Shown in pieces: positions 39,204 through 53,785 of a stretch of 64,000 bases of DNA. Position numbers and translations under genes: made by a program. The stretch comes from Hyalangium ruber (GTDB taxonomy: Bacteria; Myxococcota; Myxococcia; Myxococcales; Myxococcaceae): positions 186,001 to 250,000 of the forward strand of contig NZ_JAXIVS010000009.1 in assembly GCF_034259325.1 (NCBI RefSeq), read 5' to 3'. Numbering within the stretch: position 1 is the stretch's first letter; each line of letters opens with the position of its first letter. The notes under the pieces are model-generated. The model saw only the letters and a program-made list of their open reading frames with translations, searched no databases and was not told the DNA's origin.

Positions 39204-39289
39204 GCACGAGTGGCGGAACTGGCAGACGCAGCGGACTTAAAATCCGCTGGCCCGCAAGGGCCGTCCGGGTTCGATCCCCGGCTCGTGCA
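39204..39289 (+). tRNA. tRNA-Leu (anticodon TAA)
   Basis: An 86-base class II tRNA. The acceptor stem GCACGAG (39204-39210) pairs with CTCGTGC (39282-39288), with discriminator A at 39289. The anticodon stem-loop is GCGGA-CTTAAAA-TCCGC, giving anticodon TAA for codon UUA. A variable arm TGGCCCGCAAGGGCCG and a T arm CCGGG-TTCGATC-CCCGG are present. CCA is not encoded. The 3' end is the likely integration site of the element that follows. Confidence 0.96.
39262..39289 (+). other. putative attachment-site core in the 3' end of tRNA-Leu
   Basis: The integrase gene ends 17 bases from the tRNA and points toward it, the usual arrangement for elements that recombine in a tRNA 3' end and rebuild it. 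The core would lie within the T arm and acceptor stem. No second copy of this stretch was noticed elsewhere in the window, so the other att site is probably beyond base 64000 or degraded. Confidence 0.5.
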
Positions 39290-39306
39290 TTCTTAACCGC
39301 TGGACT

Positions 39307-40416
39307 TTACTGAGAAATTCTCCCCGTCCCGTACCGTGTGCCCCCAGTGTGACCCTCGAGCGCTCGGACAGCGTCCTTCTTCACGTCCGGGCTGAGGTGG
39401 GCGTACCGCATCGTCATCTCGATGGAGGCATGCCCCAGCAGCTCCTGGACGGCCTTCAGAGGCACCCCGCGCATCACCAGGTGACTGGCGAACGTGTGCC
39501 GCAGGGTGTGCCAGCCGATGGGCCGAAGCCCTGCCCGCTTGCTGGCCCGGAGGAGGGCGTTCCGGCAGGCATCGTTTTTAAGGTACGTCCCCTGGACATC
39601 GCAGAAGACGAACGCTCCCCGGAGGTGGCGGTGCGCCTTGAGGGCCTCGAGGGCCACCGCGTTGAGTGGCACCTCGCGCGAGCGGCCTCCTTTAGGGGTG
39701 CCGAAGTGGCCCCGCCAGACGTTCCGCTTCACTAGGAGCCTCCCGGCCACGAGATCCAGCGCATCCCACTGAAGGGCGATGAGCTCTCCTCGTCGCAGGC
39801 CCGTGTGGAGGCCCACCAGGACCATGGTGCGCCACTCGGGATCCGTGGCGGAGACTATGCGCTCCGCTTCCTCGAAGGTGAGGAAGTCGAAGTCCGGCTT
39901 CTCCACCTTCAGAAGTTTCACCCGCAGCGCGTGGGACAGGACCTCCTGCTCGACAGCGACCGTGAACAGGGTGCGCAGCACAGTGAGGGCGTTGTTGATC
40001 GTCTTGGGCGCGAGGCCCTCCTTGCGCTTCTGGGCCTTGAACGTCTCGATGTCCGCTTTTCCCACGCGGTCGAGCTTCAGGTTCCCGAAGGTCGGCAACA
40101 GGTGGCTATCGAGCAACTGCTGCTTGGCGGCCAGGGTGCTGGCCTTGTTGTTGTTGGAGCTGTACGTGAGGAAGCGCTCAATGAAGCCCCCCACGGTGGG
40201 CATTTCGGGTTCAGTCGTTCCTCGGTTGTACGTGCCTGCGAGGAGGGCTTGGCGGAGCTCCCGCTCGTACTGCTCGGCTCCTCGGCGGGTGTTCACCGGA
40301 GACGCCTTGCGCACGCGCTCCACGCGCCCGTCAGGGTGCTGGAACTTCACGTCCACCCACCACGCCTCCTGCACTCTTGCCTCCTTCGTCTTCCACTTCC
40401 GCAGCCTGACGCTCAT
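39307..40416 (-). CDS. int: tyrosine recombinase/integrase
   Basis: A 369-residue phage-type integrase. An N-terminal AP2-like arm-binding part (1-65) is followed by a SAM-like core-binding domain (about 75-160) and a catalytic domain. Active-site residues visible are Arg in TGLRRGELIALQW, Lys in GTPKGGRSREVPL, His-x-x-Arg in WHTLRHTFASHL, His in ELLGHASIEMTMRYAHL, and Tyr in the same block. It should catalyse integration and, with the excisionase, excision at tRNA-Leu. Its start lies two bases after the stop of the excisionase-like gene. Confidence 0.93.
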   Translation of the reverse strand: MSVRLRKWKTKEARVQEAWWVDVKFQHPDGRVERVRKASPVNTRRGAEQYERELRQALLAGTYNRGTTEPEMPTVGGFIERFLTYSSNNNKASTLAAKQQLLDSHLLPTFGNLKLDRVGKADIETFKAQKRKEGLAPKTINNALTVLRTLFTVAVEQEVLSHALRVKLLKVEKPDFDFLTFEEAERIVSATDPEWRTMVLVGLHTGLRRGELIALQWDALDLVAGRLLVKRNVWRGHFGTPKGGRSREVPLNAVALEALKAHRHLRGAFVFCDVQGTYLKNDACRNALLRASKRAGLRPIGWHTLRHTFASHLVMRGVPLKAVQELLGHASIEMTMRYAHLSPDVKKDAVRALEGHTGGTRYGTGRISQ

Positions 40417-45267: not shown

Positions 45268-45363
45268 TCCAGAGCCCCAGGGCAGGGCCTCGAGAAGCCA
45301 TCAGCCTGCTCCTCCACCTGGCTCGCCGCAGCCGACCGACTTCCCCATCGCTGGGCTCTCGTG

Positions 45364-45396
45364 CTAACTCAGCAAGTTAGCTAACCTGGGAGGTTA
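45364..45396 (+). promoter_or_regulatory. two tandem operator-like dyads before the lipoprotein-kinase operon
   Basis: Dyad 1 is CTAACT-CAGCA-AGTTAG (45364-45380). Dyad 2 is TAACCT-GGG-AGGTTA (45382-45396) and covers the ribosome-binding site GGGAGG of the gene at 45403. The same half-sites occur at 48156-48199 next to an XRE gene, so a common repressor is likely. Binding would block transcription start or translation initiation. Confidence 0.6.
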
Positions 45397-45402
45397 ATAA
45401 CG

Positions 45403-46062
45403 ATGGCAGAAGAGATGAAGCGAGCGGGAGTTTTCCTACGCAGTTCGCGGCTGGCGCGCACGGACTGGACGCTGACGATCACCACTTTCCACCGCTGGTC
45501 CTTGGCCCTTCTCTTGATCATGGCTGCGCCCGCGTGCGCACCTGGAGCGAGCGGCGTCTACGGACAGCAGCGGTCGACCCTGGCTGTAACGGATGATTTC
45601 GGCATGCTCCTGCTGAACGCAGGGATTCGTGCCGAGGCCCTGCTCGTGGACGGGGAACTCGCGGTGGACGAGGCGAAGCGCCTGCGCATGGTGCTCGGCC
45701 TCGAGCTCGCGGACGGTGGCATGCAGCGATATGGCCCACGTGTTGCGGCGAACTACCTGCTCTCCGAAGTCATCACCGATGGGGAGGCGGTCCCGCGGTT
45801 CGTCCTGAACGAACGGCTGCGGCGCTTTGAGCAGCTCGCGGTGCTCCGGCCCGATGGGTATCTCGTCATGACGCTGACCGGCAGCCAGCTTCAGTGCATC
45901 GGGCCTCTCCAAGTCCAGGAGGGCAACCTCAGCGCCGGCGACTTCAAGTTGGGAGCCTTCTACACGTCCACGGATGGTGGCTTTCGCGAGGATACGAGCC
46001 TGCCTCTGCTGCCCAATAGTGCGTACTTCAACGGCGTCGTCGTCACAGTGGAGACGAAGTGA
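45403..46062 (+). CDS. predicted lipoprotein, first gene of a kinase operon
   Basis: A 219-residue protein of unknown function. A long N-terminal region (1-31) precedes the hydrophobic core WSLALLLIMAAPAC, a lipobox with Cys45; the long n-region is unusual and the true start could be an undetected later codon. The mature part has no recognised domain, apart from a beta-like stretch (GYLVMTLTGSQLQCIGPLQ). GGGAGG is nine bases before the ATG and lies inside the operator. The kinase follows 40 bases downstream, so the pair is probably co-transcribed. Myxobacterial kinases are often paired with lipoproteins. Confidence 0.65.
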   Translation: MAEEMKRAGVFLRSSRLARTDWTLTITTFHRWSLALLLIMAAPACAPGASGVYGQQRSTLAVTDDFGMLLLNAGIRAEALLVDGELAVDEAKRLRMVLGLELADGGMQRYGPRVAANYLLSEVITDGEAVPRFVLNERLRRFEQLAVLRPDGYLVMTLTGSQLQCIGPLQVQEGNLSAGDFKLGAFYTSTDGGFREDTSLPLLPNSAYFNGVVVTVETK

Positions 46063-46102
46063 ACCGCACTTCTACGCCCCCCGTCATAGCCGGAGATCTG
46101 GA

Positions 46103-47377
46103 ATGAGAAACGAGAAGAGCCACAAGGGCGGGAAGCCTCCCCAGGAAGTACCCGAAGACGAGAAGCCCACGGTAGACATGAATGACGAGGAAGGCGAAAG
46201 CGAAGGACTGACTCCCGCGCAGGGCCGAGCCTTCAGCGCCGTCATGAAGGGGCTGGAGAAGCTGGGCCGGATGATCAGCGCGCGGGACTCCTTCACCTCG
46301 GGGCCAGTCTCCTTCAGGTTCGTTCGGGTGCTGGAAGAGCGAAAAAGCGGGTTGCAGTCGCTCTTGTTCGAACGCTACCTCCAACATGGGCTCGCTGGCT
46401 ACGTCGTGGTCAAGCGCCTGCGGAACCCCGCGAGCTTCGAGCGGCGCCAGCGCATGCGGGAGGAGGTGCATCTGGCCTTTCGCCTGCATCACCCGGCCAT
46501 CGCCCAGGTGCATCACTTCAAGGTCATCGAGAGAATGCCGCACGTCGTGATGGAGTACGTGGACGGCCCGATGCTCGAGTCGCTGCTGAGCACCGCAGCA
46601 ATGCGGGGCAAGCCGCTCCCGGTTTCCTTCGCCCTTTACGTGGCGGCGGAGGTGGCGGAGGGGCTTCACTATGCCCACACTCTGACGGAGAAGGAGGAGG
46701 GGGGACAGCCTCTCGGGATCATTCACCGGGACGTGAGTCCCCGGAATGTCCGTGTGGGCCGTAAGACTGGCGCGGTGAAGCTGACGGACTTCGGTGCCGC
46801 CTTCTCGAAGCGCATTGGCCGGGAGGAGACTCCGGGGCGGCTGGTGAAGGGGGATGTTCTCTACTCCTCACCGGAGTATCTGCACTGCGAACCCATGGAT
46901 GCCCGCTCGGACATTTTCTCGCTGGGCCTCGTGCTCTTGGAGGCGTTGACGAGCAAGCACCTGTTCGACGTGGGAGACTTGCTGGAAGTCGAGCCCCGAC
47001 CGGTTGACGTGGTTCCGGATGAAGAGCCTGCGGTGGCTCTCGCGCAGATGATGGTGCTGGTGGACCGCTACAGCCGAGAGGACGTGGAGCGCGTGGTGGC
47101 GGATCTCCCGGAAGGGCTCAAGGCCATCCTGCACCGTGCACTGAGGCGGGTCCCTGCAGAGCGATACGCGACGGTCGCTGAAATGCTCCAGGACCTGCGC
47201 GCCCAGCTCTTGGTACTCGCTCCCGGATACGGACGGAAGGAAGCGGCCGAGGATGTGGAGCGCCTGATCTCCGACGCCAGTGCCATGCGCGATGTCGCAG
47301 AGCCTACTGAGGCCGGCATCTACCCCGACTACTTGGACGAGCACGAGATGATGACCGGGGAGGACGGCGGCGCCTAG
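46103..47377 (+). CDS. serine/threonine protein kinase with degenerate glycine loop
   Basis: A 424-residue Hanks-type kinase without TM helix. Present are Lys104 (VVVKRL), Glu121 of helix C, the catalytic loop IIHRDVSPRNV (Asp210, Asn215), TDFGAAF (Asp229) and YSSPEYL. The glycine-rich P-loop GxGxxG is missing: the stretch FRFVRVLEERKSGLQSLLFER takes its place, so ATP binding may be altered. An acidic N-terminal 45 residues precede the fold and about 60 residues follow it. GGAG lies seven bases before the ATG. A terminator follows. Confidence 0.87.
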   Translation: MRNEKSHKGGKPPQEVPEDEKPTVDMNDEEGESEGLTPAQGRAFSAVMKGLEKLGRMISARDSFTSGPVSFRFVRVLEERKSGLQSLLFERYLQHGLAGYVVVKRLRNPASFERRQRMREEVHLAFRLHHPAIAQVHHFKVIERMPHVVMEYVDGPMLESLLSTAAMRGKPLPVSFALYVAAEVAEGLHYAHTLTEKEEGGQPLGIIHRDVSPRNVRVGRKTGAVKLTDFGAAFSKRIGREETPGRLVKGDVLYSSPEYLHCEPMDARSDIFSLGLVLLEALTSKHLFDVGDLLEVEPRPVDVVPDEEPAVALAQMMVLVDRYSREDVERVVADLPEGLKAILHRALRRVPAERYATVAEMLQDLRAQLLVLAPGYGRKEAAEDVERLISDASAMRDVAEPTEAGIYPDYLDEHEMMTGEDGGA

Positions 47378-47404
47378 CTCCTCAACGGCGCTGGGGATGA
47401 ACGT

Positions 47405-47444
47405 GGCCGGGGTGCTCGAGAGCGAGTCCCCGGCCTTCTTCTTT
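47405..47444 (+). terminator. Rho-independent terminator after the first kinase
   Basis: GGCCGGGG (47405-47412) pairs perfectly with CCCCGGCC (47428-47435), followed by TTCTTCTTT. The 15-base loop itself has a short CTCG/CGAG pairing. The T-tract touches the stop codon of the convergent XRE gene. Confidence 0.85.
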
Positions 47445-47793
47445 ACCGCAGCAGGGTCTTGGCCATGGTGATGAGTGCCTGCCGCTGGGTCTCATCCAGC
47501 TTTCGCGCAAGGTTCATGAGCTGGTGGAGCGAAGGAGGGTCCACATTGGAAGGCTTGATCTTGCCTCTCTTGGCGGGGCGGGTGAACCCGAGCAGCTCCG
47601 CTGGGGACACCTGGAGCGTCTCACAGAGCCGCACGAGCGTCGGGACGCTGGGGAGCATCCTTGCACGCTCCAGGCGGTTGTAGACGATGGCCGAAAGCTC
47701 CATCAGCCCAGCGACCTCCACTTGCGTGAGTCCCAGGCGCTCGCGTGCGGCGCGCGCGGCATCTGCGATGGTGACTGCCAGCTTCTCTCTCAT
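47443..47793 (-). CDS. XRE-family transcriptional regulator
   Basis: A 116-residue HTH_3 protein: ARERLGLTQVEVAGLMELSAIVYNRLERAR and PSVPTLVRLCETLQVSPAELL form the five-helix Cro/C1-type domain in residues 10-68. The C-terminal 45 residues are basic and may dimerise. It is convergent with the first kinase. A perfect dyad just upstream of its start suggests autoregulation. Confidence 0.88.
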   Translation of the reverse strand: MREKLAVTIADAARAARERLGLTQVEVAGLMELSAIVYNRLERARMLPSVPTLVRLCETLQVSPAELLGFTRPAKRGKIKPSNVDPPSLHQLMNLARKLDETQRQALITMAKTLLR

Positions 47794-47802
47794 GGGTAGA
47801 CA

Positions 47803-47827
47803 GGCCGGGAGAACAATGGTCCCGGCC
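47803..47827. promoter_or_regulatory. perfect 8-base dyad upstream of the XRE gene
   Basis: GGCCGGGA-N9-TCCCGGCC, ten bases before the XRE start. Its half-site differs from those of the operators at 45364 and 48156, so the two XRE proteins probably recognise different DNA. Confidence 0.5.
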
Positions 47828-47877
47828 CGTGGCAGCAGAGTACCCGCGATGCCGCCCTCAAGGGGGCCCGAGTGACA

Positions 47878-48105
47878 CTACGCTCCTACGCCCGAAGCGC
47901 CCAGGAGTACATCGGTCGGGGTTTTGAGGACCTGCGAGAGGAGGGCGAGCGTGGGGACACTGGGCAGCAACTTCCCCCGCTCGAGGCGGCTGAAGGCGAG
48001 CGGATTGAGCTCAATGGCCTCCGCAACCTGCTCCTGGGTGAGCCCAGCGCGCCTGCGCGCTTCGCGAACGGCGCTTCCGATGGTTTCTGCCATTCTCAGG
48101 GACAT
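47878..48105 (-). CDS. small XRE-family repressor, divergent from the second kinase
   Basis: A 75-residue protein that is almost only a Cro/C1 HTH domain: AVREARRRAGLTQEQVAEAI, then NPLAFSRLERGKLLPSVPTL. AGAGG is eight bases before the ATG at 48105 (48093 is an alternative). It is transcribed divergently from the second kinase operon, with two operator-like dyads in the shared intergenic region, the standard layout for a repressor controlling itself and its neighbour. Confidence 0.87.
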   Translation of the reverse strand: MSLRMAETIGSAVREARRRAGLTQEQVAEAIELNPLAFSRLERGKLLPSVPTLALLSQVLKTPTDVLLGASGVGA

Positions 48106-48155
48106 GGGAACGACCTCTCGATTGTGAGCGTGAATACCGCGGCGGCGGTGCAGTG

Positions 48156-48199
48156 GGTTATACTAGCAGGTTAAGAGCCAGGTATACCTGCCAAGTTAG
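48156..48199. promoter_or_regulatory. operator-like dyads between an XRE gene and the second kinase
   Basis: Site 1 is TATACT-AGC-AGGTTA (48159-48173). Site 2 combines TATACCT (48183-48189) with AGTTAG (48194-48199), spacer GCCA; its left part is inside the perfect palindrome AGGTATACCT (48180-48189). Architecture and half-sites match the pair at 45364-45396. Confidence 0.6.
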
Positions 48200-48357: not shown

Positions 48358-50469
48358 GTGAGCTCGCGCCGCAAGCCCCTGGCGCCGGAGGTAGCGCCCG
48401 GAACGGACGTGGGCTCCTATCGTGTCGACGCTCGGCTTGGAGCGGGTGGTTTCGGCACCGTGTTCCGTGCCGAGCGTGGCGGCGAACTCTACGCACTGAA
48501 GGCCCTCTCCCTTCAGGAGGTGGGGGAGTGGGCTGAGCGAGAGGTAGTTGTCCTTGCGCGTGTGAAGCACCCCAACGTGGCGCGGCTCCGCGGCTTCTGG
48601 CAGTGGCCGGACCATGAGCCGAGGTACCTCGTCGTGGTGATGGAGTACGTACCGGGACGGCGGCTGGATGTGTGGACGCGCACCGAGAACCCGTCAGCGC
48701 GCCAGGTGCTACGGCTGCTGCTGGGCGTGACAAGGGCGCTCATGGCTGTCCACCGGGCGAAGGTGGTCCACCGCGATGTGAAGGAAGCCAACATCATCGT
48801 TCGTGAGTCGGACGGTGAAGCGGTGCTGGTGGACTTCGGTGTGAGCGGGTGCGAGGAGGCGTCCCGGGTGACGGGAGGGATGATGCCGCCGGGGACGCCG
48901 GGGTACCGCAGCCCCGAGGCATGGAAATTTCGGCGCGAGAACAAGGGTGATCCGGGGGCGCGGTATCGGCCCACGCCTGCTGACGACATGTTCGCGCTGG
49001 GCATCGTCCTCTACTGGATGCTGACGGACGTGCTGCCCTTCGCTGAGAGTGACATTGAGGGCGTGGAGGCCCTGCTCACGCGCCCACCCACGGCGCCGCA
49101 TGTGCGCAACTCCCGAGTCCCTCGAGAACTCAGCGAACTGTGCCTGCGGTTGCTGGAGAATCAACCCGAGGTCCGGCTAGATGCGGAGGCCGCGTGCAAG
49201 GCGGTCGAGGAATTGCTCACGCTGGAAGAGGCGGTTTGGGACGAGCCGCTATGCGAGTTCTTCAGCGAGCACAACGTTACGACCAACCCAGAGGAAGGTG
49301 TGGACGAGGAGGCCCTCTGGTTGAACGAGGTGCGGGAAGCCGAGGCAAGACCTCGTCGAGGGAAGCGCCCGCCGCGTTTGGTAGCGGTGAGCACCCTTGA
49401 TGCTCCCAAGTCGGCGCCTACTGCCGCCACTGTGCCGCCTGCGCAACAGATTCCCGCGGACCAGGAACTGCTGCCCGAAGCCGAAATCGGGCCCCATGCC
49501 TCCATCCAGCATCAGGCTCTTCCTGCGGCGCTGGTTCCGCCGCCCAAGCCCGTCCAGGAGGCTCCTGACGATTCCATGCCCATGCCCTCTCCGCCTGTTC
49601 TCGTACCCGCGCTCCCCGGGGCCGCGCCTGCGAGCATGGTGGAGTTGCGGCTGCGCGTTCCATCCATGGGGCGCTGGGGACGCGCGGCGGGGCTGGCTCT
49701 CGCCGTGGCCTTGAGCGCGCTCGCCTCTCGCTACAGCGTGCTGCTACCTCCTCCGGCCACGCCCCAAGCACTGCCGGCGCCTGCGGCTCGCACGTTGAAT
49801 CCAGAGAGCACACGGTTTGATGCGCCTCTGCCTACCTGGGAGGGAGGTTGGAAAGTGGCGTCTCCTCTCAAACCGCTCGAAGCTAAGCGCGGTAGCCTCT
49901 TCGGTTTCAAAGAGGCTGGTCCTGTGCCCGTCGCACCTGCCGCGACGCTCGAAGAGGATGAAGCTTCCGTGAGGACTCCGCAGCAGCTGAAGAAAGAACT
50001 CCGTGCCGTGAAGAAGGCTCTTGTCATGGGGTCCGCGTGTACGGCCCTGGCCTGCCCTGGTGCTGAGGTGCTCCGCTCCCCAGAGCCCAAGCCGTGCCCA
50101 CCCGGCGCTGTCGAGGCCATGAAGGAGCGTGGCATCTCTCCGGGTTACGTACATGGAGGGACCTTCTTTCTCGTCCTCGAAAAGGGGCCGCAGGTCACGA
50201 CCGTAAGTGAGGGCCGGACAAACGTAAGACTTATAGGTCCCTGGGGAACCATGAAGGGCGGAACCATCTTCTCCGGGGAGCTGATCTTCGGGGAGCGTGT
50301 TTACGGTCGGCTGACCCAGGCCCGGACGAAGGATGAGTCCTTCCCTGTGTGCATCGAACTGTGGGACGAAGAAGGGGGGCGTGGACTCAAGCGGGAGCCC
50401 AACGACGGTCCCAATACTGCTAAGGTCTTCTCCACTATGACGCTGCGGGTAGTGAGCCACTTCGAGTGA
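48358..50469 (+). CDS. membrane serine/threonine protein kinase
   Basis: A 703-residue Hanks-type kinase. The kinase domain covers about 20-290: glycine loop LGAGGFGTVFRAE (28-33), Lys48, catalytic loop VVHRDVKEANI (Asp140, Asn145), VDFGVSG (Asp159) and GTPGYRSPEAW. A Pro/Ala linker (340-425) leads to one TM helix (about 441-463). The C-terminal 240 residues are extracytoplasmic and have a small beta-like domain (PGYVHGGTFFLVLEKG, GELIFGERVYGRLTQ). AGAGGAG is four bases before the GTG start. The canonical catalytic set suggests activity. The downstream DUF2381, toxin and immunity genes follow in the same direction with gaps near 100 bases. Confidence 0.9.
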   Translation: MSSRRKPLAPEVAPGTDVGSYRVDARLGAGGFGTVFRAERGGELYALKALSLQEVGEWAEREVVVLARVKHPNVARLRGFWQWPDHEPRYLVVVMEYVPGRRLDVWTRTENPSARQVLRLLLGVTRALMAVHRAKVVHRDVKEANIIVRESDGEAVLVDFGVSGCEEASRVTGGMMPPGTPGYRSPEAWKFRRENKGDPGARYRPTPADDMFALGIVLYWMLTDVLPFAESDIEGVEALLTRPPTAPHVRNSRVPRELSELCLRLLENQPEVRLDAEAACKAVEELLTLEEAVWDEPLCEFFSEHNVTTNPEEGVDEEALWLNEVREAEARPRRGKRPPRLVAVSTLDAPKSAPTAATVPPAQQIPADQELLPEAEIGPHASIQHQALPAALVPPPKPVQEAPDDSMPMPSPPVLVPALPGAAPASMVELRLRVPSMGRWGRAAGLALAVALSALASRYSVLLPPPATPQALPAPAARTLNPESTRFDAPLPTWEGGWKVASPLKPLEAKRGSLFGFKEAGPVPVAPAATLEEDEASVRTPQQLKKELRAVKKALVMGSACTALACPGAEVLRSPEPKPCPPGAVEAMKERGISPGYVHGGTFFLVLEKGPQVTTVSEGRTNVRLIGPWGTMKGGTIFSGELIFGERVYGRLTQARTKDESFPVCIELWDEEGGRGLKREPNDGPNTAKVFSTMTLRVVSHFE

Positions 50470-50575: not shown

Positions 50576-51517
50576 GTGCCCGTGCTTGCTTCAGCGCCTG
50601 TTGCCCTCACGTTTGCCCTGCTTGCTGGAGTGCCTGACGCGGCCTCGCTGCTGCCACTCCCCGACTGCCAAGCAGTCCAAGAGCGCATCGAGCTGCCAAC
50701 AGAGCCGGAGAGGAGGGTGCATACGCTGTGCATCAGCCCGGGGATTGTTACGACTTGGATCTTTGATGCTCCGCTTCCCCCCGGGGCGGTGCGCCTGGAG
50801 GTGGAGGAACGGGATGTGCTGCTGGTGCAGGCCGGGCGTGTCGTCACTCTCCTGCCTTCGGAGCACCTGCTGCCGGGGCGGCGCTTGAACATGACAGTGC
50901 GCTTTGATGACGACGCCGCCCCTGGGGGCACCACCTTCATGCTCGTGGTTCATCCTGCGCGCGCCCTGCGTCAGGTGGAGGTGTTTCGCCACAAGCGCAC
51001 GGTGGAGTCCTACCAGCAAGTTCTCAAGGCAAAGGAAGAGGAAGCTAAGCAGTGCCACGAGGAAAACGAGCGGCTCCGGGCCGTACAGGGGAGCCCGGTC
51101 GGGCTCAAGGGCCTGCGCAGTGCGGGGCTAATGGACGAGAAGGGCGTCGCCGTTCGCTCCATTACCAGCGGCGTCATCGAGCGCCCTGGCAGCGCGCTGA
51201 AGCCGTTGCGAGCCACGAGCTATCGGGCAAACGAACGGGTGGCTGTGGAAGTGCAACTGGCGTTGACGATACCGGTGGGTGGCAAGGACTGGGAGGCAGT
51301 TGGGGCTGCGCTCGTTGGCATTGGCGGACGTGAGCTGCCTGTGCTGGAGGTGTGGCAGCAGGCGCCCATTACCCCTGGAGAGAAGGGGGAGCATTACGTC
51401 ATGGTGGAGGCAGATGCCAAGCCGGATGAGGCCAAGGGAACCTTTACTCTCAAGCTCTGGGATGCGGGAGGCACGCGCACCGCAATCCTCGAAGGGGTGA
51501 CGTTCCCACCGCTTTAG
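50576..51517 (+). CDS. DUF2381 (TIGR02268) family exported protein
   Basis: A 313-residue member of a paralogous family nearly confined to myxobacteria and typically found beside Ser/Thr kinases. It has a signal peptide (MPVLASAPVALTFALLAGVPDAAS), a beta domain (VHTLCISPGIVTTWIFDAPL, typical of the family), a coiled-coil stretch (VLKAKEEEAKQCHEENERL, about 148-166) and a second beta domain. The start is GTG with AGGAG ahead. Its biochemical role is unknown; location suggests an envelope partner of the kinase or of the toxin downstream. Confidence 0.85.
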   Translation: MPVLASAPVALTFALLAGVPDAASLLPLPDCQAVQERIELPTEPERRVHTLCISPGIVTTWIFDAPLPPGAVRLEVEERDVLLVQAGRVVTLLPSEHLLPGRRLNMTVRFDDDAAPGGTTFMLVVHPARALRQVEVFRHKRTVESYQQVLKAKEEEAKQCHEENERLRAVQGSPVGLKGLRSAGLMDEKGVAVRSITSGVIERPGSALKPLRATSYRANERVAVEVQLALTIPVGGKDWEAVGAALVGIGGRELPVLEVWQQAPITPGEKGEHYVMVEADAKPDEAKGTFTLKLWDAGGTRTAILEGVTFPPL

Positions 51518-51611: not shown

Positions 51612-53048
51612 ATGCCAGGCTGGGCGGTTGTGCTGCTGTTCGCGGTTCTCGTTGGGTGCAGTACCACAACGAAGGTCGTCCGCCTGGACACAGGTCAGGG
51701 CGAGCCCATCGTCCACGTTGCGCGCGGAGACGTGGATCCGGTGGAGGTGAACGACGACGAATTCAATGAGGCCGTGGCAAAACACGTGCACACGGTGCCA
51801 ATCCCTGAGCGGCCTCTGGAGTTCGCCCGCCAACTGTTCGGAGTGCCTGAGCGTAGCGGCTGGTACCGCTACGAGCGGAAGAGCCGACGGCTCTTCCCTC
51901 TGGGGGCTGAGAGCGAGCTGAAGGTGGAGATTTCCGCTGCCGACGCGGAGTTGAACCGCCAGTACCTGCTGTGGTGTGGGCGGGCCTGGGGACCATCTTC
52001 CAGGGATTGCCTGCGCCTGCTGGTGAACAGCCCCGTGCTGGACGGCGAAGGGAAGTACGCCTTGGCGATGGCCATCTCCCGGGGGGCGGTGTTGGGGGAG
52101 ATGAAGGAAGCCTTCGGGCAGATGGTGAACCCCGAGGCCGTAGCGGCAACCATCACGGGCGCGATGACGATGTACCTCATGCTGTGGCTGTTGCCCGAGC
52201 CCGTATCGAAGGGCGTCGCGGGGCTGATGACCGTGGGCCTGGTGAGCTACCTGGGCTGGGACCTGGTGTGGAAGCTCATCGACGGGTGGCGTGAGATGGT
52301 GGCGGCGGTGGACCGAGCCACGACGTTCGAGGAGATCAGGGCCGCGGGAGAGAAGTTCGCGAAGGTGATGGGGGACAAGGGGACGAAAGCGTTCGTGATG
52401 TTGGCGATGCTGGCTGTGGGGAACACAGCGGCCGGCATGGCATCGAAGATGCCCACGCTACCAGGCGCCAGGCAGGCTGCGGTGGTGGCCGAAGCGCAGT
52501 TGAACATCCGCTATACGGCACCTGCACTTGCCGAGGTGGAGTCAGTCGCTATCAACGCAGAGGGAGTCATCGTCGCGCTGGCCCCCAACGCCGTGGCCAT
52601 GGCGGCGCGGGGCAACTCAGGCGGCAAGGAAGTCGCGAAGGCCGGGCCGCCCAGTTCTGGTGGTCCAGGTGAATGGGTCCAAGCGGACGAGTACATGTCG
52701 GAGAGTTCCCGCAGCTATCAAGCCCAGGTCACGGGAGCCCCCAAGGGCTCCGCCTACCGCGTCAGATGGGGTGACAAGGAGGTGGACTTCGATGGCTTCG
52801 ACCAGGGCGTGCTCCTCGAGGTCAAGGGCACCGGCTATGCGAAGTGGGTCGATAAGCAGCTGAACTTTTTCAGGATCTTCGAGGGACGGGACAAGATGCT
52901 TGGTCAAGCGAAGCGCCAGTTCGAAGTTGCCAATGGAATGCCCATCCGGTGGATCGTCGCCGAGGAGAAGCTAGCGGGCGCGCTGAGGAAGATGTTTAGA
53001 GCAGCGCGCCTTGAGATCGAGGTCATCCATGTTTCCCCAACTCCGTGA
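51612..53048 (+). CDS. lipoprotein polymorphic toxin with C-terminal Tox-REase-5-like nuclease domain (SitA-like)
   Basis: A 478-residue lipoprotein. The signal MPGWAVVLLFAVLVGC gives lipidated Cys16. Residues 170-225 and 255-275 contain hydrophobic segments that could insert in membranes. The last 120 residues form a PD-(D/E)xK nuclease-type domain: VDFDGFDQGVLLEVKGTGY, with acidic residues at 392/394 and Glu403-x-Lys405. The overall plan (lipoprotein, helical middle, variable toxic C-terminus, adjacent immunity gene) matches the SitA toxins that myxobacteria pass to siblings by TraA-dependent outer-membrane exchange. GGGAGG precedes the ATG. The immunity gene starts within 20 bases after its stop. 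Confidence 0.8.
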   Translation: MPGWAVVLLFAVLVGCSTTTKVVRLDTGQGEPIVHVARGDVDPVEVNDDEFNEAVAKHVHTVPIPERPLEFARQLFGVPERSGWYRYERKSRRLFPLGAESELKVEISAADAELNRQYLLWCGRAWGPSSRDCLRLLVNSPVLDGEGKYALAMAISRGAVLGEMKEAFGQMVNPEAVAATITGAMTMYLMLWLLPEPVSKGVAGLMTVGLVSYLGWDLVWKLIDGWREMVAAVDRATTFEEIRAAGEKFAKVMGDKGTKAFVMLAMLAVGNTAAGMASKMPTLPGARQAAVVAEAQLNIRYTAPALAEVESVAINAEGVIVALAPNAVAMAARGNSGGKEVAKAGPPSSGGPGEWVQADEYMSESSRSYQAQVTGAPKGSAYRVRWGDKEVDFDGFDQGVLLEVKGTGYAKWVDKQLNFFRIFEGRDKMLGQAKRQFEVANGMPIRWIVAEEKLAGALRKMFRAARLEIEVIHVSPTP

Positions 53049-53062
53049 GGAGCAGCTGCTCG

Positions 53063-53785
53063 ATGATAGAGACCTACTACGCTGGTTCCTACTGGCTCGC
53101 CCGGTCCGAATCTGCGGAGGCTTGCGCACAGCGCGCGGAACGTTTCTTCCACCTCTTGGGCCACTGCGACCCGGCGTGGACCAGCTGGTATGAGAAGGCA
53201 GGTTCATTCGAGGAAGCACGGAGACGGCAGTTCACGACAGACGCTGCAAACTTCCAGAAGCTGTTCGCCCAAAAGGAGCATGAGATCGGAGATGGCTTCT
53301 CGTTTCATTTATGGACGGGCAACAACCTGGAAGAGACGTCCGGCGTCGACGGCAGCTGCGGTTATTCCTCCCGTCACCTGCCGGCCTCCTGCGTGCTCGA
53401 ACCCTACGATGAGGGTCCTATCGGGGAGCGGGTGCTGACCGCCTCCGTCATGATTGCGGTGTTGCGTGCCATGGCCCTCGCCTGGGAGCCGGAGTGGGGA
53501 GTGGTCACCTCGCATCAATACGACGAGCTCGTTTCAGAGAAGGTCATACCTGCGGGCACTTCGGTGGGCTGGGTGATGTACTTCTCTCGGCTGCGTGGCC
53601 CTGTGCCCCCACTGCCGGCCCCTGTGCGTATCGAACGCGTGGAGGATAAGGGCACGCTGGTCATCCTCACCCCCGAGAGATTCACCGTCGCCAACCCGGA
53701 GCACGTCGCGCTGGCCGCTCGCGTCCACGAACTGCTGGACCGGGCTGGGTTGCTGCGGAGGCTGCAGCCCTGGCCGACAGGTTGA
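53063..53785 (+). CDS. Imm52-like immunity protein
   Basis: A 240-residue cytoplasmic protein starting MIETYYAGSYWLARSESAEAC, the N-terminal pattern of the Imm52 family as I recall it, with AGGAGCAG about ten bases before the ATG; a GTG at 53045 overlapping the toxin stop is an alternative start. Imm52 genes usually stand beside Tox-REase-5 toxins, which agrees with the gene before it. It should neutralise that nuclease in the producer and in kin carrying the same allele. Confidence 0.82.
   Translation: MIETYYAGSYWLARSESAEACAQRAERFFHLLGHCDPAWTSWYEKAGSFEEARRRQFTTDAANFQKLFAQKEHEIGDGFSFHLWTGNNLEETSGVDGSCGYSSRHLPASCVLEPYDEGPIGERVLTASVMIAVLRAMALAWEPEWGVVTSHQYDELVSEKVIPAGTSVGWVMYFSRLRGPVPPLPAPVRIERVEDKGTLVILTPERFTVANPEHVALAARVHELLDRAGLLRRLQPWPTG

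Follow-up and report, generated by a model that had tools for sequence, protein, structure and literature searches.

Small autoregulated repressors of the HTH_3 type (helix-turn-helix, HTH), such as RstR, the Xre regulator of ICEBs1 and DicA, have their operators in a divergent intergenic region, and in the Lambda/P22 immunity switch tandem operator dyads are bound by a small HTH repressor encoded on an integrase-carrying, tRNA-borne element. In Myxococcus xanthus the Pkn8-Pkn14-MrpC system combines a membrane kinase, a soluble kinase and a DNA-binding protein, and phosphorylation of MrpC prevents binding to its promoter (PMC6213207). The SitAI outer-membrane-exchange cassettes of myxobacteria are often found on mobile DNA; kinases go unmentioned in the paper reporting this (PMC8546572), and the first SitA paper mentions no kinases, XRE proteins or repressors. 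Neither a regulatory module for sitAI nor any paper mentioning DUF2381 or TIGR02268 was found in the non-subscription literature covered. Each component taken singly is known, be it the autoregulated XRE repressor, the Ser/Thr kinase or the SitA cassette, and it is their combination that was not found. Such a combination is present in the 64-kb stretch of Hyalangium ruber DNA analysed here (the window; contig NZ_JAXIVS010000009.1, positions 186,001 to 250,000), where two pairs of operator-like dyads, A1/A2 and B1/B2, precede two kinase operons separated by genes for two XRE proteins, XRE116 and XRE75 (Table 1). Operon 1 encodes a lipoprotein and the soluble kinase kin424, and operon 2 the membrane kinase kin703 and a DUF2381 protein. 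Judged from comparison of related loci, the dyads are probably (about 0.7) operators of an XRE repressor encoded by the module, most likely XRE116, whose repression the kinases of the module would relieve.

The genes are laid out as an autoregulated repressor with a kinase operon diverging from it, and not as a CI/Cro switch. The module shares with Lambda and P22 the tandem operator dyads, the small HTH repressor and the location on an island with an integrase at a tRNA gene, but it has no divergent repressor/Cro pair. The phage-like immunity switch proposed in the initial annotation is not supported, since the window lacks two antagonistic repressor genes diverging from shared operators: both XRE genes are co-directional on the minus strand and the divergent gene encodes a kinase, not a Cro-like protein. 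RstR, the ICEBs1 regulator and DicA resemble the module in repressor type and in operator location; the module differs from them in targeting Ser/Thr kinase operons instead of replication or transfer genes, and in a second operator pair 2.8 kb away before another kinase operon. XRE116 and XRE75 belong to the XRE (Cro/CI) HTH family, with HTH_3 scores of 46.4 and 42.3 bits against a Pfam cut-off of 23. The NCBIfam model of RstR (NF041951) is the best sub-threshold match of both, at 35.4 and 38.7 bits against a cut-off of 80, and among solved structures XRE75 comes closest in sequence to the ICEBs1 regulator. Like Pkn8-Pkn14-MrpC, the module joins a membrane kinase, a soluble kinase (assigned by hydropathy and PF00069) and a DNA-binding protein; unlike it, the module has its three genes adjacent and uses an XRE regulator, MrpC being a CRP-like protein of another family. 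By this analogy the kinases would be the obvious inputs to the XRE repressor. The likeness to SitAI cassettes lies in the end of operon 2, where a SitA5-family Tox-REase-5 lipoprotein gene is followed by an immunity gene.

All four sites reported in the initial annotation are present in the window. The A pair lies directly before the start codon of the lipoprotein gene (45403), with A2 spanning the ribosome-binding site GGGAGG, and the B pair lies between the minus-strand XRE75 gene, which starts at 48105, and the kin703 gene (start 48358). A1 is a perfect dyad whose arms reach 7 bp with the flanking G/C, A2 is a perfect 6-3-6 dyad, and their centres are 17 bp apart. The left half of B1, which holds a -10-like TATACT, matches TAACCT at 4/6 positions, and B2 is a weak dyad with the core ACYTG-C-CARGT. 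The spacing and half-sites described as common to the two operons are indeed common in frame and right half-site, the left half-site agreeing only loosely; equal half-sites are exact in A2 and good in A1, and the left halves of B1 and B2 are approximate only. With up to two mismatches, TAACYT-N3-ARGTTA (TAACYTNNNARGTTA) has exactly four matches in the window, at 45365, 45382, 48159 and 48184, compared with 0.55 expected per 64-kb window and 0.0003 per 40 bp under a first-order Markov model. What is improbable is the clustering: the four sites form two pairs, and each pair adjoins a kinase operon. When one mismatch was allowed, the whole 10.8-Mb genome contained three sites only, 45365, 45382 and one on contig 17; since the reversed control pattern gave 5 matches, there is no genome-wide excess, and a genome-wide regulon of the exact motif was rejected. 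The contig 17 site (TAACCTCCCAGGTTG; L240:7586-7600, genome G000) precedes a lone kinase gene by about 40 bp, and no XRE homologue was found in the 13 kb retrieved for that locus.

A search for relatives and retrieval of their loci yielded 84 loci with a kin424 gene, and 55 of them have the order kin424(+)-XRE116(-)-[XRE75(-)]-kin703(+). The module, found in Myxococcaceae, consists of a soluble kinase gene, in some cases behind a SitA-like lipoprotein gene, one or two divergent XRE repressor genes, and a membrane kinase gene followed by DUF2381, the last being next in nearly all modules with a long enough flank. XRE116 is present in nearly all modules, with XRE75 as an optional member. The kin424 and XRE116 trees, both built by maximum likelihood, are closely congruent, and because of this agreement the two genes are taken to have travelled together. 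The same-family relatives include Pyxidicoccus and Corallococcus records; a scan of genome contigs gave only four loci. Among the matches listed from phage and plasmid records there were only distant kinases (identity up to 35 %), the module itself not having been searched for there. The module appears to be undescribed.

Since like sites recur before related kinase genes in dozens of myxobacterial loci, the paired palindromes are almost certainly real protein-binding sites. In the upstream region, defined as the 260 bp before kin424 or before the lipoprotein gene, ACYY-N3-RRGT occurs as 89 dyads in 57 of the 84 loci, a density of 4.0 per kb and 25.6-fold that of the remaining sequence of these loci (0.16 per kb); shuffled upstream regions contained 4.2 dyads on average and 12 at most. 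Only the N3 spacing is strongly enriched; N4 is enriched 3.5-fold, with no enrichment for N1, N2 and N5; reversed letters gave 1.5-fold, and reversed or permuted patterns were not enriched upstream of kin424. The sites are often paired and occur in 10 of the 11 kin424 clades. In the clade of L101 and L166-L179 the half-sites ATACYY/RGGTTT are constant and the three spacer bases vary, and in the window clade A1 coincides in part with a -10-like element, GNTANC, which CTTYNC precedes by 16-17 bp; the centre of A2 follows 17 bp downstream. The promoter-like pattern CTTYNC-N16/17-GNTANC is also present in L160, L095, L163, L164 and L165, and in L162 with small departures. The absence of dyads from orthologous operons, which the initial annotation named as refuting, was checked for and not observed: orthologous modules in other genomes have dyads before both kinase operons. 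The initial annotation stands in this part, as the sites behave as operators in the comparison.

Similarity arising by chance from AT-rich promoter elements is hardly credible; A1 and B1 do contain -10-like sequences and the half-site letters partly coincide with them, but the enrichment is specific for the spacing, the reversed and permuted controls do not show it, and the N3 bases vary between conserved half-sites. It is also highly improbable that the dyads act in RNA, as hairpins which hide the ribosome-binding site or terminate transcription. The A dyads of the window do fold as adjacent hairpins, one of them holding the ribosome-binding site, but the fold z-scores are only -0.3 to -1.9, and the half-sites of other clades, found 140-250 bp upstream of the kinase homology, are incompletely complementary (ATACCT/GGGTTT). 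Both regions, A and B, were folded for the window and for seven relatives, and the hairpin reading was rejected as the two-hairpin fold is not kept in the orthologues.

Of the 55 modules, 12 have N3 dyads in the gap between their XRE and kin703 genes, compared with 2.5 on average and 7 at most in shuffles, and 11 have N4 dyads there; this signal is real but weaker than that of the A region. Clear B pairs are present in L161, L163 and L164, and the L101 group has two conserved blocks. The B region resembles the A site of its own module, with a mean match of 8.65 of 12 positions versus 7.67 for shuffled sequences (37 modules; Wilcoxon p 9e-6). In seven further loci (L244-L250) with a second arrangement, XRE-XRE(-)/kinase(+)/kinase(+), 26 of 42 dyads fall inside the XRE/kinase and kinase/kinase gaps, which make up 2 % of 140 kb, and both gaps contain dyads at every locus; the limits of these intervals were drawn manually along gene borders, allowing small margins, when the matches were already known. 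In L160 (G076) a palindromic GACCGGACGTCCGGTC-like repeat occurs several times in tandem within the XRE/kinase gap.

The initial annotation favoured the 75-residue protein as the binder, a choice that had to be changed because five of the eight window-clade modules (L161, L163, L164, L165 and L095) lack the XRE75 gene and keep the upstream dyads. XRE116 is the most likely candidate repressor, since it is near-universal in the modules, its tree matches that of kin424, and its helix 3 varies together with the operator half-sites. The variation between clades concerns residues 34-36, the counterparts of the base-contacting residues of 434-type repressors: helix 3 with S-[AP]-[IV] is paired with YAACYY/ARGTTA and A-H-M with ATACYY/RGGTTT. 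In both trees L162 branches beside the window clade as its sister, yet it has an A-H-M helix 3 (IAHMVYNR) and the operator ATACTC-N3-GGGTTT. A recombination swap was rejected as an explanation, as the kin424 and XRE116 trees place L162 identically; being one evolutionary change, the L162 case is suggestive of XRE116 binding and not proof of it. That XRE75 represses both operons, or alone binds the neighbouring B sites, is unlikely. It is a complete HTH protein adjoining the B pair, its helix 3 (NPLAFSR) resembles that of window-clade XRE116 (SPIVYNR), and the window and L160, which both have XRE75, show B features not seen in relatives without it; but XRE75 is fast-evolving and optional, and three of the loci lacking it (L161, L163 and L164) have clear B dyads besides their A dyads. 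Possible roles of XRE75 are those of a partner, of an antagonist, or of a second repressor acting at the B sites.

The sites, their positions and spacing and the gene order are conserved among the compared loci; binding by XRE116, repression, a phosphorylation step, a signal and control of the toxin are inferred. Sitting on A1 and A2, XRE116 would block the -10 region of operon 1 together with its start and ribosome-binding region. At B1 and B2 it would autoregulate the XRE operon and hold off the divergent kin703-DUF2381 operon, and in the window island this repression would perhaps extend to the following SitA5 toxin and Imm52 genes. The membrane kinase would sense something outside the cytoplasm, upon which the repressor would be inactivated, either directly or via the soluble kinase. 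Both kinases look intact in the window.

In the window and in L161/L225, L163/L226, L165/L227, L188/L231, L191/L234, L197/L235 and L249, a SitA5-type or SitA-like toxin gene adjoins the module or lies near it, which makes at least seven XRE-kinase modules besides that of the window, some of them with Imm52. Many other modules have no SitA-type neighbour, and in seven genomes the co-localisation is only a few-fold above chance by a rough count; the toxin link recurs without being obligatory, and that the module controls the toxin is a hypothesis. The wider proposal of a widespread cassette, in which an island-specific XRE and operator code with two relieving kinases gates SitA toxin and immunity expression, is tentative and less probable than not. 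The H. ruber genome (G000) contains 37 SitA5 escort-region matches and 13 Imm52 genes, versus 7-12 and 0-5 in six single-contig relatives.

Several observations weigh against an XRE116-operator circuit relieved by the two kinases. The loci are related and their counts are not independent, a canonical A dyad is lacking in the MHPa clade, and the B-site enrichment is weaker, with several clades lacking a recognisable B dyad. Control of the toxin would need read-through over DUF2381 or a further promoter. The DFG motif is degenerate (NFG, HFG or NFT), with HRD kept, in about 45 of 72 kin424 homologues (L090-L219), and because of this loss of the DFG aspartate a general two-kinase relay is doubtful; the soluble kinase is not intact throughout the family, as a system like Pkn8-Pkn14-MrpC would require. 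The kin424 protein is likely a pseudokinase in many modules, and a scheme in which the membrane kinase acts directly, or kin424 serves as a scaffold, would fit all clades. The drift of the family into pseudokinases takes place inside a conserved regulatory module. Finally, dyads of the type YAACCT-N3-AGGTTR precede kin703-DUF2381 genes without a nearby XRE gene in L237-L239 and L241, so that another XRE protein may bind some dyads. At these four loci CAACCT-N3-AGGTTG immediately precedes the membrane-kinase/DUF2381 genes or is close to their start, and the spacer AGC/GCT recurs in several genomes. Such dyads, and the one at the contig 17 kinase gene, could be explained by a regulator encoded elsewhere for which many kinase genes offer the motif as a binding site, in which case the neighbouring XRE genes would be incidental. 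This is quite improbable, since the H. ruber genome shows no enrichment (3 matches versus 5 for the control), its other modules (L108, L122, L123 and L126) lack this operator type, and the half-sites vary by clade as module-specific repressors would predict.

Table 1. Operator-like sites, putative promoter and genes in the window
Feature	Position	Strand	Remarks
Operator-like dyad A1	45364..45380	.	CTAACT-CAGCA-AGTTAG, overlaps -10-like element
Operator-like dyad A2	45382..45396	.	TAACCTGGGAGGTTA (TAACCT-GGG-AGGTTA)
Operator-like site B1	48159..48173	.	TATACTAGCAGGTTA (TATACT-AGC-AGGTTA)
Operator-like site B2	48183..48199	.	TATACCTGCCAAGTTAG
Putative promoter, operon 1	45340..45368	+	-35-like CTTCCC (45340-45345), 17-nt spacer, -10-like GCTAAC (45363-45368)
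SitA-like lipoprotein, 219 residues, first in operon 1	45403..46062	+	N-terminal homology to toxin lipoproteins
Soluble Ser/Thr kinase kin424, operon 1	46103..47377	+	PF00069; HRD and DFG intact
XRE116, 116-residue Cro/CI-type HTH protein	47443..47793	-	HTH_3 4e-12
XRE75, 75-residue Cro/CI-type HTH protein	47878..48105	-	HTH_31 6.7e-12
Membrane Ser/Thr kinase kin703, operon 2	48358..50469	+	PF00069 1.6e-37
DUF2381 / TIGR02268 protein, operon 2	50576..51517	+	N-terminal signal-like segment
SitA5-family lipoprotein toxin	51612..53048	+	NF050093 escort domain 6.9e-103; Tox-REase-5 PF15648
Immunity protein Imm52	53045..53785	+	PF15579 1e-102

The open frame of kin424 may begin as early as 45974, and no membrane segment is predicted in its product, whereas kin703 has an N-terminal kinase domain, a membrane segment predicted from hydropathy at about residues 445-463 and a C-terminal extracytoplasmic part. 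The toxin following DUF2381 belongs to the SitA5 family (NF050093, 343.7 bits against a cut-off of 160) and has the organisation of a polymorphic toxin, with a Tox-REase-5 domain followed by an Imm52 immunity gene. The lipoprotein of operon 1 has no matching toxin domain and thus lacks the C-terminal toxin of the SitA family; it resembles only the N-terminal part of toxin lipoproteins, for example that of an L045 protein ending in Tox-REase-5, and through this resemblance both operons appear related to the Tox-REase-5 toxin lipoproteins. This toxin-less lipoprotein gene stands alone before the kinase gene, and like pairs were seen in L035-L039, L041, L043, L061-L063, L163 and L165.

The sites are located on an island adjoining a tRNA-Leu gene, with genes for an integrase, an excisionase-like HTH protein, a primase-helicase and an insertion-sequence transposase. 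The tRNA-Leu gene (at 39204-40416) and the tyrosine integrase, excisionase-like and primase-helicase genes that follow it mark an integrated element; no second attachment site or tRNA-Leu repeat marking the far end of the island was found within the window.

Myxobacteria have very many Ser/Thr kinases whose role is unknown, and the module ties a block of them to a specific candidate repressor and its sites, offering a direct and cheap route to testing kinase function. The repressor-operator pairs with differing half-sites form a family in which the evolution of specificity may be studied. Regulation of kin-discrimination toxins appears unstudied in the literature covered, and some of the modules adjoin SitA toxin genes. 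If the module does gate these toxins, contact-dependent kin killing would be gated by a signal and insulated between the islands of one genome.

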